A DNA stretch of 38,586 nt from an uncultured Gimesia sp. (GTDB lineage: Bacteria > Planctomycetota > Planctomycetia > Planctomycetales > Planctomycetaceae): positions 1 through 38,586 of the forward strand of contig NZ_CALFPF010000797.1 in the NCBI RefSeq assembly GCF_937919775.1, read 5' to 3'. The notes under the pieces are model-generated. The model ran no database searches and was not told the DNA's origin. It saw only the letters and a program-made list of their open reading frames with translations. Below, one piece after another: positions 19,383-27,074 of the stretch (its first letter is position 1; each line of letters begins with the position of its first letter). The position numbers and the translations under genes are program-made.

Positions 19383-19955
19383 TTACGCCTGATAATGGCG
19401 GGTGATCAGATCGTTCTGCAGCCAGAGTAATTTGTTGAACGCGATTAACGTTTTGACTTCGGTTTCCCGATCCAGGTTCAAGCCCAGAATCGTGCTGACT
19501 AAAGCGTTCGAAACAAATCCCATCAACGCGTTCATCTGAACCAGCGGGACATTCAATTCCTTACTGCCGGCTTTGGGGGTATGGATCTTGCCGACCATGT
19601 CCAGATACTGCACCATTTTTTCGTCGTAGGGTTTTGTGACCAGTGTTTCCAGATAACGCCCCAGATGCTGTTTGCGAAACTGAATCATTTCGTGATCGAC
19701 GGTGAGCGTCTCAATGCTTTCAGGAATTTCGCCTTCATAACCATGTTGGCGTGGCACAAAATGGCGTTTTGTGCAATCATATCGGAAGAGTTGGTCATAA
19801 ACGGCATCAACCAGCGCAGGAACCAGTGGTGCGATGGCGCCGGCTGCTGAATGGATCGCCTGTAAATCGTCTTCATTGACTCCGATAAATTCGGTGAGAT
19901 ATTGAAATCGATAAGGCAGATCGGTTTCCAGTTTTTCTTCATCAATGTGTTTCAT
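19383..19955 (-). CDS. Protoglobin-domain protein (globin-coupled sensor globin fold, single domain)
   Basis: 190 aa; YRFQYLTEFIGVNEDDLQAIHSAAGAIAPLVPALVDAVYDQLF, FRKQHLGRYLETLVT (putative proximal His), YLDMVGKIHTPKAGSKELNVPLVQMNALMGFV. Confidence 0.85.
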   Translation of the reverse strand: MKHIDEEKLETDLPYRFQYLTEFIGVNEDDLQAIHSAAGAIAPLVPALVDAVYDQLFRYDCTKRHFVPRQHGYEGEIPESIETLTVDHEMIQFRKQHLGRYLETLVTKPYDEKMVQYLDMVGKIHTPKAGSKELNVPLVQMNALMGFVSNALVSTILGLNLDRETEVKTLIAFNKLLWLQNDLITRHYQA

Positions 19956-19980
19956 TTTTGGTTCCTAATTCAATTGAGCG

Positions 19981-20008
19981 ACTATAATTAACTGATTCGA
20001 ATATTCAA
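19981..20008 (-). promoter_or_regulatory. Candidate promoter for the protoglobin gene (TTGAAT-N16-TATAGT on minus strand)
   Basis: -35 complement at 20003-20008, -10 complement at 19981-19986; overlaps palindrome 19995-20022. Confidence 0.45.
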
Positions 20009-20022
20009 AAAATATCCTGAAT
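19995..20022. promoter_or_regulatory. Candidate Rrf2 operator palindrome ATTCGAATATTCAAAAAATATCCTGAAT
   Basis: Imperfect dyad in divergent intergenic region; core GAATATT/AATATCC and outer ATTC/GAAT. Confidence 0.45.
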
Positions 20023-20056
20023 TAATTTGATACGCAGAATAACAGACGCAATAATA

Positions 20057-20068
20057 GACATCAATGTC
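20057..20068. promoter_or_regulatory. Second small palindrome GACATCAATGTC upstream of the Rrf2 gene
   Basis: Perfect 5-bp half sites with 2-nt centre, about 27 nt before the ATG. Confidence 0.3.
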
Positions 20069-20094
20069 CAATTATCGTTTTCAAGGACTTTTTT

Positions 20095-20571
20095 ATGTTT
20101 TCCCAGACTGTTGAATATGCACTTAGAGCAATTGTCCATTTAGCAGACCAGTCCCCTAACCCGTGCACAACAGAACAAATTGCGAAAGCCACCAAGGTCC
20201 CGCAGGCATATCTTTCCAAAGTGCTGCAAAGTTTGCGACAGTCGAATGTGGTTCATTCGCAGCGGGGTATCGGTGGTGGTATCTCGCTGGTGAAGTTACC
20301 TGAAGAGTTGAATCTGCTTGAAGTGGTGAATGCCGTCGATCCGATTTGCCGGATTAAAACCTGTCCACTCGGGTTGAAAGGTCACGGCGCGAATTTATGT
20401 CCTTTGCACCGCAAGCTGGACGACGCCCTGCGTGAAACAGAAACTGCTTTTGCGAATACAACACTGGCTGAAATTCTGTCTTCCTCAACCAGCAGTTACC
20501 CGCTTTGCAACGAACCCCACGAACGACTGACTCCGTTGCAGGCTTTACCTGTTGTCCCCATTAAAAAGTGA
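20095..20571 (+). CDS. Rrf2-family transcriptional regulator with putative Fe-S cysteine cluster
   Basis: MFSQTVEYALRAIVHLAD, IAKATKVPQAYLSKVLQSLRQSNVVHSQRGIGGGISL; cysteines ICRIKTCPLGLKGHGANLCPLH. Confidence 0.93.
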   Translation: MFSQTVEYALRAIVHLADQSPNPCTTEQIAKATKVPQAYLSKVLQSLRQSNVVHSQRGIGGGISLVKLPEELNLLEVVNAVDPICRIKTCPLGLKGHGANLCPLHRKLDDALRETETAFANTTLAEILSSSTSSYPLCNEPHERLTPLQALPVVPIKK

Positions 20572-22708: not shown

Positions 22709-23602
22709 ATGTCAGGCTTTAGCCAGGAAAATGTAGAAGAGATTTTCGCCCTTGCCGGCGAAAGTATGCCTGCACTTTCTGACTCATTCAACCAGTGTTT
22801 TGATTTTAATTATCGACTGGAAATGGGGGAGTCGGGTGTCTGGTCTCCGGAGGAATTAGAGGATGCGTTTCGGGGTCCCGGTCTGGTGGCCCTGTTTCGA
22901 ATGGGTGAGGAAGCAATGGTCGGGCTCATCCCGGCAAGTATTCCTTTACCAGACTGGTATCAGAGTCCCGGAGATTCGCAATCGTCCCGGTTGCAAACAT
23001 TATCTCTGGAATGGTCAATGAACCTGATCCCGATGGATTTAGGAGATGTTGATGAATTTAAAACGTATTATGTCGATAACTTACTGACAGAAGTCTCGCA
23101 ATGTGCTCCCGCTGACTGGGCTGCCCTGTTGCGAATTAAACTATTCCAGACTGAAGATGAAAGCGACGGCCAGAGCCCGAGTGCTGTGATCCCTGTAATT
23201 TGGCCACTGACGAAACTGCCAGTTACAGATTCCGCGGAAGCGGAAACAGATCCAGCTCCTCAGCCGGCCGCTTCATCTGCAAGCTCCTCTAACTCCGCGC
23301 CAACAATGGGTCAAACGACTAATTCCAATTCGATTTACAATCCGTTAAACCGCATCAGTAAACTGCCCGTACAGGCGATTGTGAAACTGGCTACTAAGAA
23401 AATTGAATTGAAGCAACTGCTTTCAATCTGCCCCGGTTCGCTGATTACCTTCGACAAGCCTTGTGAAGATCCGCTCGAATTGTATATCAACAACCAGGTT
23501 TACTGTCAGGGAGAGGCAGTCAAGATTGGGGAAAACTTTGGTTTGAAAATTGATCGGGTCGGCTTCAAAAAGGAATTCGAAACGAAGATTATCGAATTTT
23601 AG
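22709..23602 (+). CDS. SpoA/FliN-domain (flagellar motor switch-like) protein with unassigned N-terminal domain
   Basis: C-terminal LPVQAIVKLATKKIELKQLLSICPGSLITFDKPCEDPLELYINNQVYCQGEAVKIGENFGLKIDRVG matches the FliN/FliM C-terminal (SpoA) pattern. Confidence 0.82.
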   Translation: MSGFSQENVEEIFALAGESMPALSDSFNQCFDFNYRLEMGESGVWSPEELEDAFRGPGLVALFRMGEEAMVGLIPASIPLPDWYQSPGDSQSSRLQTLSLEWSMNLIPMDLGDVDEFKTYYVDNLLTEVSQCAPADWAALLRIKLFQTEDESDGQSPSAVIPVIWPLTKLPVTDSAEAETDPAPQPAASSASSSNSAPTMGQTTNSNSIYNPLNRISKLPVQAIVKLATKKIELKQLLSICPGSLITFDKPCEDPLELYINNQVYCQGEAVKIGENFGLKIDRVGFKKEFETKIIEF

Positions 23603-24110: not shown

Positions 24111-27074
24111 ATGAGTTCCGAGCCAAAATCTGACCGTTCAACGACAAATCAGGCACCGCTGCCTGAATTTTTTGCGCGGCCGATTCCAGAAGCAGACGGG
24201 CCGGAAACGATTATCAGTCCGCTCGAAGCAATTCCCGTTGCTGACTTTGGTCGCGACAGCAGCGGCTCGCAGAATCAGGCTGCCCGGTCTTCTGTCTGGA
24301 ATCGTCTGTTTCCACCCACTATTGATGATCCCGATGCGCAGACGGAGATTCCCAATCCCTCAGGCATGGAGCTGGAGCATTTCATCATTCGTGAGCGCAT
24401 CGGTCGGGGAGGGATGGGCGCTGTCTTTCGCGCCATTGATACCCGTCTGGACCGGGTTGTCGCGTTGAAGGTACTCAGCCCGGGACAATCGCGCGATCCG
24501 GGATCGGTCAAACGTTTTCAAAACGAAGCCAAATCAGCAGCACGTCTGGATCATGAAAATATCTCGCGTGTATTCTACATCGGCGAAGATCAGGGCTTGA
24601 ACTTCATTGCCTTCGAATATGTCAAAGGTACGAATGTCAGAGAGATCATCCAGTCGCGGGGCATCCTGCCGGCTGCGGAAGCGGTGAATTATGCGTTGCA
24701 GATTTCTTCTGCCCTCAAACATATCAACAAAGCAGGTGTGGTTCACCGGGATATCAAACCTTCCAATATCATTATTACCCCCGGCGGCAGAGCGAAGCTG
24801 GTTGACTTGGGACTCGCACGCAAAGAAAGTGACAACGCGTCCGCAGACCTCACCAGTGCCGGTACCACTTTAGGAACATTCGACTACATTTCTCCCGAAC
24901 AGGCGAAAGACCCGCGCAATGTGGATGTCCGCAGCGATATCTATTCGCTCGGTTGCACCCTGTACCACATGCTGACCGGCGAACCTCCCTACGGCGAAGG
25001 AACCGTGCTGCAAAAGCTGCTGGACCACAGCGGGAAAAATGTTCCCGATCCGGCCGTCATCAATAAACAACTGCCTCATGAACTTTCACTGATCGTTCAG
25101 AAAATGATGGCCAGTGATCCGGAAGAACGTTACCAGACTCCCGAAGAACTCATGTTTCATTTAATGCAGGTCGCCAGCCAGCTTGATCTGCGCGGAGTCA
25201 ACCCGGAAGGACTGGTCTGGACATCGCCTACCAGTTCACGACTCGGATTTCTTGAAAAACATGTCGGCTGGATTGCCACTGCAGCGGTTTTATTAATCGT
25301 GGTCGTGCTGCTGGATCGTTATCCGGCGTTCGATCCATCCAATGTGGTGCAAAACACCAATGCCAGGAAGGATACCGTCTCCGGTCAGCAGGCCATCGAC
25401 ACCAGACAGATCAATCCTGAAACCAGTGCCTCTCTGCCGGAAACAGACATCAGCAATTCAAAGCCGATCACAGGCGCCGAGACGATCGCTTCTGTTGATC
25501 CCTCCGGTCCTGCAAAAGAAATCACGGCCGTTCCTGCCCCCGATGCAGGCAAAACCGCTTCGGGTACAGAAAAATCCGAAGACGCGCATCTGGCAAAAAT
25601 GAATCTGGATGAGGAAGGAAAAGGTCTGAATGAAATTTTCGACATGCCGCTCCTCTCTTCTTCCAAGAATTCGATCAGCACATTACTCGAAGCCGGGAAT
25701 CCGCCCAAAAATAAAGTGCTCCTGGATAACGGTCCCGAAACGGAAGTTGCCTTATCAAACAGTAATGACCAGAAAAAGACGATGGTCCCCCTGGCGCCAG
25801 CGCCGGTACCTGACGGTCGTACCGAGATCGAGCCGGAACCATTCCCGAAAAAAAGCGATAACGAATTTCGAAAAATCGAGATCCCCGCAATTACCATTAT
25901 CAATCCGGATGGTACTCCGGGACAGGATTTCAAAACGCTGGATGCGGCATGTGCTGCCGCCGACGACGGAAGCATCATTGAACTTGGTTTTACCGGTATT
26001 CGCAAAGAAGCGCCGATTCACATCAATAACAAACGTGTGCGAATTCGGGCAGCGAAAGACCGTAAACCGGTTTTGCTGTTCGAATCTGTGGAAGAGCCGG
26101 CGGAAGGTTTTCAGACTCACATGATTCAGGTGGCCAACGGCTCTCTGGAACTGTTTGAGCTGGGTATTATAGTCGATGTGAAAGATCTGAATTCCGATTC
26201 CTGGGCGATCTTCTCTTTGAAAAATGCGCACGATATCCGCTTGCATCAGGTGACCGTGACCTGTTCCAACACCACACGTCAGCAGGTCGCGCTCTTTGAA
26301 ATGAACGAACCCATCAATCAGGGATTGAATGATGATTCCATGATGGGCAAACGACCGGTGAAAGAATCCACGTTCATCGAAGTGATGAATTCGATTCTCC
26401 GCTGCGACGGCTACGCGTTTTCAATTCGAGAAACGGCTCCCACGCGTCTGGAAATTACCAATTCCACATTGATGATCGCGCAATCCATGATGGAACTCAT
26501 TGGCTGCAACAACAAACCAACCGAAGGCGACCATCTGGAACTGATTTTGAATCATTCCACGTTTGTACTGGGGAAAGGGCTGGCTGTGATGGACAGTGGC
26601 TCCATTCCCCGGGAATTGATTCCACTCCATGTTTCTGCACGTAACAATGTTTTCTTTTCGCGAAGCAATGCACCCTTTGTGCTGATGAAAGGAAACACCA
26701 ACGAAAATGATTTTCGTCAGAAACTTTTAACCTGGCGCGGCTCCAACAATTATTACGATCGTTTTGAAACATTCTGGACGATTCAGTCTCAACAGGGAAC
26801 AACGGGAACACTTTCACTCGACGCACTCGACTGGAAGGATATCTGGGGACTTTCTTCCGAAGTGAACAGTTATCAAATGGAAATTCCCTGGATGGTGGAG
26901 CGTCAGAAACTGATCACCACCCCCTGCTCTGAAATACAGGCCGCTCAGTTGCAGTTCAATCAACCCACTGACGGCAGCCCGACCATCACCGCCATTGATC
27001 GTACCAACGCCGGTGCCGACCTGCTGGTACTACCGGAACTGCCACGCGCCATCAAAGCACCCAGAACGGAATAA
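24111..27074 (+). CDS. Serine/threonine protein kinase with TM segment and C-terminal beta-helix-like region
   Basis: RIGRGGMGAVFRAID, VVHRDIKPSNIIITPGGRAKLVDLGLARK, FDYISPEQAKDPRNVDVRSDIYSLGCTLYHMLTGEPPY; TM IATAAVLLIVVVLL; later TLDAACAAADDGSIIELGFTG... Confidence 0.92.
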   Translation: MSSEPKSDRSTTNQAPLPEFFARPIPEADGPETIISPLEAIPVADFGRDSSGSQNQAARSSVWNRLFPPTIDDPDAQTEIPNPSGMELEHFIIRERIGRGGMGAVFRAIDTRLDRVVALKVLSPGQSRDPGSVKRFQNEAKSAARLDHENISRVFYIGEDQGLNFIAFEYVKGTNVREIIQSRGILPAAEAVNYALQISSALKHINKAGVVHRDIKPSNIIITPGGRAKLVDLGLARKESDNASADLTSAGTTLGTFDYISPEQAKDPRNVDVRSDIYSLGCTLYHMLTGEPPYGEGTVLQKLLDHSGKNVPDPAVINKQLPHELSLIVQKMMASDPEERYQTPEELMFHLMQVASQLDLRGVNPEGLVWTSPTSSRLGFLEKHVGWIATAAVLLIVVVLLDRYPAFDPSNVVQNTNARKDTVSGQQAIDTRQINPETSASLPETDISNSKPITGAETIASVDPSGPAKEITAVPAPDAGKTASGTEKSEDAHLAKMNLDEEGKGLNEIFDMPLLSSSKNSISTLLEAGNPPKNKVLLDNGPETEVALSNSNDQKKTMVPLAPAPVPDGRTEIEPEPFPKKSDNEFRKIEIPAITIINPDGTPGQDFKTLDAACAAADDGSIIELGFTGIRKEAPIHINNKRVRIRAAKDRKPVLLFESVEEPAEGFQTHMIQVANGSLELFELGIIVDVKDLNSDSWAIFSLKNAHDIRLHQVTVTCSNTTRQQVALFEMNEPINQGLNDDSMMGKRPVKESTFIEVMNSILRCDGYAFSIRETAPTRLEITNSTLMIAQSMMELIGCNNKPTEGDHLELILNHSTFVLGKGLAVMDSGSIPRELIPLHVSARNNVFFSRSNAPFVLMKGNTNENDFRQKLLTWRGSNNYYDRFETFWTIQSQQGTTGTLSLDALDWKDIWGLSSEVNSYQMEIPWMVERQKLITTPCSEIQAAQLQFNQPTDGSPTITAIDRTNAGADLLVLPELPRAIKAPRTE

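Follow-up and report, generated by a model that had tools for sequence, protein, structure and literature searches.

A single-domain protoglobin gene and a gene for an Rrf2-family regulator stand back to back in the window, a term used here for the whole stretch of DNA that was analysed, 38,586 nucleotides from an uncultured Gimesia sp. The source contig is part of a draft genome (G000) of 5.76 Mb in 819 contigs. The arrangement raises the question of whether the regulator controls the protoglobin, and if so through which DNA site and in response to which signal. The two genes are:

19383 to 19955, minus strand: protoglobin open reading frame, 190 amino acids (PF11563, E 6e-37)
20095 to 20571, plus strand: Rrf2-family regulator open reading frame, 158 amino acids (PF02082, E 2e-28)

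A first, sequence-only reading of this DNA had described a divergent single-domain protoglobin/Rrf2 pair across about 140 bp. This is confirmed: the start codons are 139 bp apart, and both domain scores lie far above the curated cut-offs. The pair recurs in each of the 16 genus genomes with a detected Rrf2 gene and more widely across Planctomycetia, and it is also present, in the divergent orientation, in 46 distinct intergenic regions from outside the genus. The Rrf2 protein of one Gimesia relative (L035) is 92% identical to that of the window. At two loci (L090 and L104) the Rrf2 gene is divergent from a Tll0287-like gene, which is found in place of the protoglobin. Elsewhere in the window, positions 22709-23602 encode a 297-amino acid protein with a FliM/FliN C-ring domain at its C-terminal end, just upstream of a large serine/threonine kinase-like open reading frame (24111-27074).

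The operator and the predicted promoters

The elements considered between the two genes are as follows:

20052 to 20073, no strand: 22-bp operator TAATAGACATCAATGTCCAATT, containing dyad 2 (20057 to 20068)
20059 to 20064, minus strand: predicted protoglobin -35, TTGATG, inside the operator and column-aligned with homologous TTGACA
20036 to 20041, minus strand: predicted protoglobin -10, TATTCT, separated from the -35 by 17 bp; genus mean identity 0.88
20027 to 20032, plus strand: predicted Rrf2 -35, TTGATA, read from the sequence; mean identity 0.83 in the genus
20050 to 20055, plus strand: predicted Rrf2 -10, AATAAT, 17 bp from the -35 and overlapping the operator; mean identity 0.92 in the genus
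19995 to 20022, no strand: dyad 1, present as letters and unsupported as an operator

Dyad 1 had been proposed as the site of Rrf2 action, and it is rejected on symmetry, conservation and matrix score. Five of its 14 positions are symmetric, and each of 1000 dinucleotide-shuffled versions of the intergenic region contains a 28-mer of equal or greater symmetry. All 28 of its bases vary among 16 genus genomes (mean identity 0.44), and the stretch is altogether missing from several relatives. It departs from the class-wide motif described below, and its score on the class operator matrix is negative. The protoglobin promoter drawn over it, TTGAAT-N16-TATAGT on the minus strand, can be read in the letters, but its -35 is not conserved. 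The TATAGT hexamer (19981-19986, minus strand) is largely conserved in the genus though its proposed -35 is not, and may mark an additional promoter of the protoglobin gene, as its -10, or be an element of another kind.

The second proposed palindrome, dyad 2 (GACATCAATGTC at 20057-20068), is likewise present in the letters, and its symmetry alone is at chance: it is 5/6 symmetric, a value equalled by 74% of shuffles. It is taken as real because of comparative evidence, as it forms the core of a conserved operator. Fifteen of the 22 bases of 20052-20073 are invariant among the 16 genus genomes, the mean identity is 0.97, and this is the most conserved of the blocks tested between the protoglobin and Rrf2 genes.

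The class consensus of the operator, AATTGGAY-N6-RTCCAATT, was initially read by eye from loci outside the genus, where the 22-bp element is usually found in two copies spaced 41-51 bp in the intergenic regions. A matrix was then trained on 76 sites from 46 non-genus intergenic regions, with the genus as the test set. This matrix detects 20052-20073 or its counterpart in all genus loci. The operator of the window scores 19.6 bits, and no other match of at least 12 bits is found in the window. Around 80 named loci, the 500 bp upstream of Rrf2 contain 95 matches at or above the same threshold, compared with 6 in the remaining 695 kb. At 14 bits over 1.17 Mb the matrix gives 217 matches, a number that includes the training loci, against a single match for the reversed-matrix control. 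The DNA site of the Rrf2 switch is therefore most likely, as judged by comparative sequence evidence, 20052-20073 and not 19995-20022.

This site lies over promoter-like hexamers. In 32 distinct homologous intergenic regions TTGACA is found inside the first operator in the protoglobin direction, with per-column values of 0.88-1.0, and a -10-like hexamer follows 16-17 bp beyond it. In the window the operator covers the predicted protoglobin -35 and the predicted Rrf2 -10; therefore one operator could block both promoters.

Properties of the regulator and the protoglobin

The regulator belongs to the Rrf2 superfamily, with 99.6 bits against PF02082 (cut-off 30) and 104.9 bits against TIGR00738 (cut-off 73.3). 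Its structure model (pLDDT 84) displays the winged-helix Rrf2 fold and is matched by Foldseek to RsrR, CymR, IscR and NsrR. Residues E7, R11, C90, H97, C102 and H105 are invariant in an alignment of 33 homologues. A C-X4-C-X11-C motif had been noted in the protein, and it is present in the letters as C85-X4-C90-X11-C102. C85 is found only within the genus, where even there it is replaced by Gln at one locus (L020). The three-cysteine NsrR/IscR motif is rejected for this reason: with a first cysteine that varies, the pattern counts as partly incidental.

The cluster residues of Streptomyces coelicolor NsrR, Asp8, Arg12, Cys93, Cys99 and Cys105, provide reference positions (PMC5411485). The N-terminal carboxylate and arginine of NsrR are represented by invariant E7 and R11 at Asp8 and Arg12, with Glu replacing Asp, and of the three cluster cysteines just two have invariant counterparts, C90 and C102. 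The NCBIfam NsrR model NF008240 gives 42.7 bits against a cut-off of 182, although the model is proteobacterial and might miss actinobacterial NsrR too. The IscR models give 47.2 bits against 207.55 and 34.5 against 275, and the RirA model is far under its cut-off. Of the RsrR positions Glu8 and His33, the first is matched by E7, and the second is occupied by an invariant threonine, T33. With two of three cysteines kept and the NsrR, IscR and RirA models far under cut-off, the protein is not filed as NsrR. By sequence it is not NsrR, yet it probably functions like one.

The protoglobin is a member of PF11563 (127.5 bits, cut-off 25) and has the globin fold as judged by Foldseek. A sequence search of the PDB, profile included, returned no match, and folds were compared for that reason. 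The structure model (pLDDT 91) resembles globin sensor domains and the protoglobin of Methanosarcina acetivorans, with a TM of ∼0.7 (Foldseek). H125 is invariant in 56 homologues and is the likely proximal haem histidine.

Genes under the operator and the likely signal

The genome of the window was searched for the operator by pattern rather than by a genome-wide matrix, and the target genes lie outside the matrix training. On contig C547, AATAGGATGTCAATATCCAATA precedes an operon that encodes a 180-amino acid Tll0287-like protein (PF11845) and a 741-amino acid quinol NO reductase (PF22085, COX1). The region upstream of this operon has two operators and the sequence TTGACA-N16-TATACT. The Tll0287-like/NO reductase operon is preceded by the operator in the genus as well, and paired operators before the Tll0287-like gene are also found in L131-L134 and, more distantly, in L145, L151 and L156. 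In several genomes a more distant Rrf2 gene adjoins the NO reductase or Tll0287-like gene, and there the latter lacks the operator. These operator-free genes lie beside other Rrf2 genes (L136-L139, L141-L143, L146, L148-L150, L241, L242 and L245-L247), and the distant Rrf2 genes are 26-48% identical. This suggests that another Rrf2 regulator has assumed control at such loci.

Two further groups of genes are linked to the operator. In all five genus genomes that have Hcp (hybrid cluster protein, PF03063), its gene and that of a second protoglobin lie under a common operator; this protoglobin paralogue (∼57% identical) is divergent from Hcp (L192:2539-3123, L193 and L230-L232). The genome of the window gave no match to Hcp. 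A cytochrome-c-like CxxCH protein of 440-450 amino acids has the operator in 15 of the 15 genus loci with upstream sequence, and in these operators the arms are almost constant and the six central bases vary. The CxxCH family (e.g. L197:2598-3944) has no Pfam match; in other planctomycetes its members also stand immediately after the protoglobin gene or under the same operator. In the genome of the window, contig C344 carries the CxxCH operator at its end, and the gene, C323:38-1276, begins at a contig edge. Among the genes encountered under the operator, none is for Fe-S assembly or iron uptake. As judged from the predicted products, with quinol NO reductase, Hcp and protoglobins under one operator, the gene content is that of an NsrR-type NO regulon.

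Some operator-like sites were set aside. Further sites in the genome of the window with 2-3 mismatches are near background and were used only if conserved in relatives. Sites at L202, L205, L219 and L224 have no plausible target gene and are probably due to chance. Pattern matches near G013, G016 and G012 (L194, L195, L196 and L200) score <10 bits on the matrix and were dropped.

A strict class-wide operator search was positive in 27 of 149 genomes, with 0 for the reversed control. All 27 encode an Rrf2 orthologue, which is present in 85 of the 149 genomes overall. The naive probability of this co-occurrence, 3e-8, ignores relatedness, and many of the matches are the Rrf2 promoter itself. For these reasons the co-occurrence supports the regulator-operator link without deciding it.

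The explanation that we consider rather likely is that the Rrf2 protein is an NsrR-like, NO-responsive Fe-S repressor that acts through 20052-20073 on both promoters and on a dispersed NO-removal regulon. The Rrf2 dimer, with its cluster intact, would bind the 22-bp operator and obstruct RNA polymerase at two elements, the protoglobin -35 and the Rrf2 -10, and both divergent promoters would be silenced. Nitrosylation or destruction of the cluster by NO would release the protein from the DNA. Derepression would then allow expression of the protoglobin together with the dispersed genes: in this genome the Tll0287-like protein with quinol NO reductase, and the cytochrome-c-like protein; in relatives, also Hcp with the second protoglobin. 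The sequence-only reading had the Rrf2 protein repress the protoglobin, with NO, O2 or redox change as the signal. That idea, with NO as the likely signal, has strong comparative support and is strengthened by the conserved pair, the shared operator, and the NO reductase and Hcp genes under the same operator, whereas the site 19995-20022 and its promoter do not stand. NO is favoured over O2, redox state and iron because a globin, NO reductase and Hcp are the genes that NsrR typically controls, and also because of the lack of Fe-S assembly and iron-uptake genes among those met under the operator.

A wider form of this explanation is possible and is put forward tentatively. There may be a class-wide planctomycete NO regulon governed by a new Rrf2 subfamily, in which the cluster is held by Glu/Cys/His/Cys, a histidine replaces one NsrR cysteine, and protoglobin is the main NO-removing globin.

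The same operator and regulator might instead serve a cluster that senses redox state or O2, with the regulon adapted to a low-oxygen shift. RsrR, the [2Fe-2S] redox regulator of Streptomyces venezuelae, is the closest solved structure to the Rrf2 protein by both sequence and fold (its best PDB match), the conserved Glu7 takes the place of RsrR residue 8 near the N-terminus of the alignment, and cytochrome-c-like proteins are among the targets. The target set is nevertheless the typical NO set, and the invariant T33 stands where RsrR has His33; this alternative is unlikely. Sensing of iron or Fe-S status through the same operator, in the manner of IscR or RirA, would fit the presence of haem and Fe-S proteins among the targets and the C102-X2-H105 pair, which resembles the Cys104/His107 ligand pair of IscR, the Fe-S status regulator (PMC5411485). 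Given that the protein has one cysteine fewer than IscR, that Fe-S assembly and iron-uptake genes were not seen under the operator, and that the IscR and RirA models are so far under cut-off, we regard it as improbable. Slightly lower still do we place the proposal that a different regulator reads the operator and that the Rrf2 gene is merely one of its targets. The operator does occur far from Rrf2 genes, and its binding by the Rrf2 protein is a prediction, but it is most often beside an Rrf2 gene and the strict search was positive only in Rrf2-bearing genomes. One genus genome (G002) has a single Rrf2 match but three further operator sites, which also argues against a different regulator. 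Action through dyad 1 over TTGAAT-N16-TATAGT has the largely conserved TATAGT hexamer on its side and is scarcely credible for a dyad of chance symmetry that is unconserved and differs from the class motif.

Comparison with known systems

The open-access literature searched, with subscription papers outside the search, provided nothing that links protoglobin with Rrf2, and nothing that combines Planctomycetes, Rrf2 and nitric oxide. If the favoured explanation, an NsrR-like NO-responsive repressor, is true, Planctomycetia gain a nitric-oxide response that is defined and testable and whose operator can be read, and bacterial protoglobins gain a physiological context. The regulator would be a natural NsrR variant with an altered ligand set, suitable for the study of how Rrf2 proteins choose among NO, redox state and iron. 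The finding widens from a single promoter to a regulon, within the known NsrR-type NO response.

The window's protoglobin shares Pfam family and fold with the M. acetivorans protoglobin, but the two are only 13-14% identical in the structural alignment. The M. acetivorans protein acts in vitro as a nitrite reductase and as a peroxynitrite isomerase (PMC4020757), and by analogy a role of the window's protoglobin in reactive-nitrogen chemistry is plausible.

The closest parallels are with NsrR. The Rrf2 fold is shared with S. coelicolor NsrR, and E7, R11, C90 and C102 are found at the positions of Asp8, Arg12, Cys93 and Cys105 (PMC5411485). The middle cysteine, Cys99, is missing, but the invariant H97 is nearby. 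The classic NsrR targets are hmp, hcp and norB (PMC1274295), and a globin, an NO reductase and Hcp are likewise predicted targets here, except that the globin is a protoglobin and not a flavohaemoglobin. The operators differ as well: the planctomycete element is a 22-bp symmetric sequence with AATTGGAY arms, whereas the proteobacterial consensus is gATGyAT-N5-ATrCATc. The S. coelicolor NsrR site AATTGGTAGATGATATTCGTGTT, on the other hand, shares the AATTGG half-site with the planctomycete operator and is still bound when its central 7 bp are altered (PMC9338935). This changeable centre fits the variable centre of the operator in planctomycetes.
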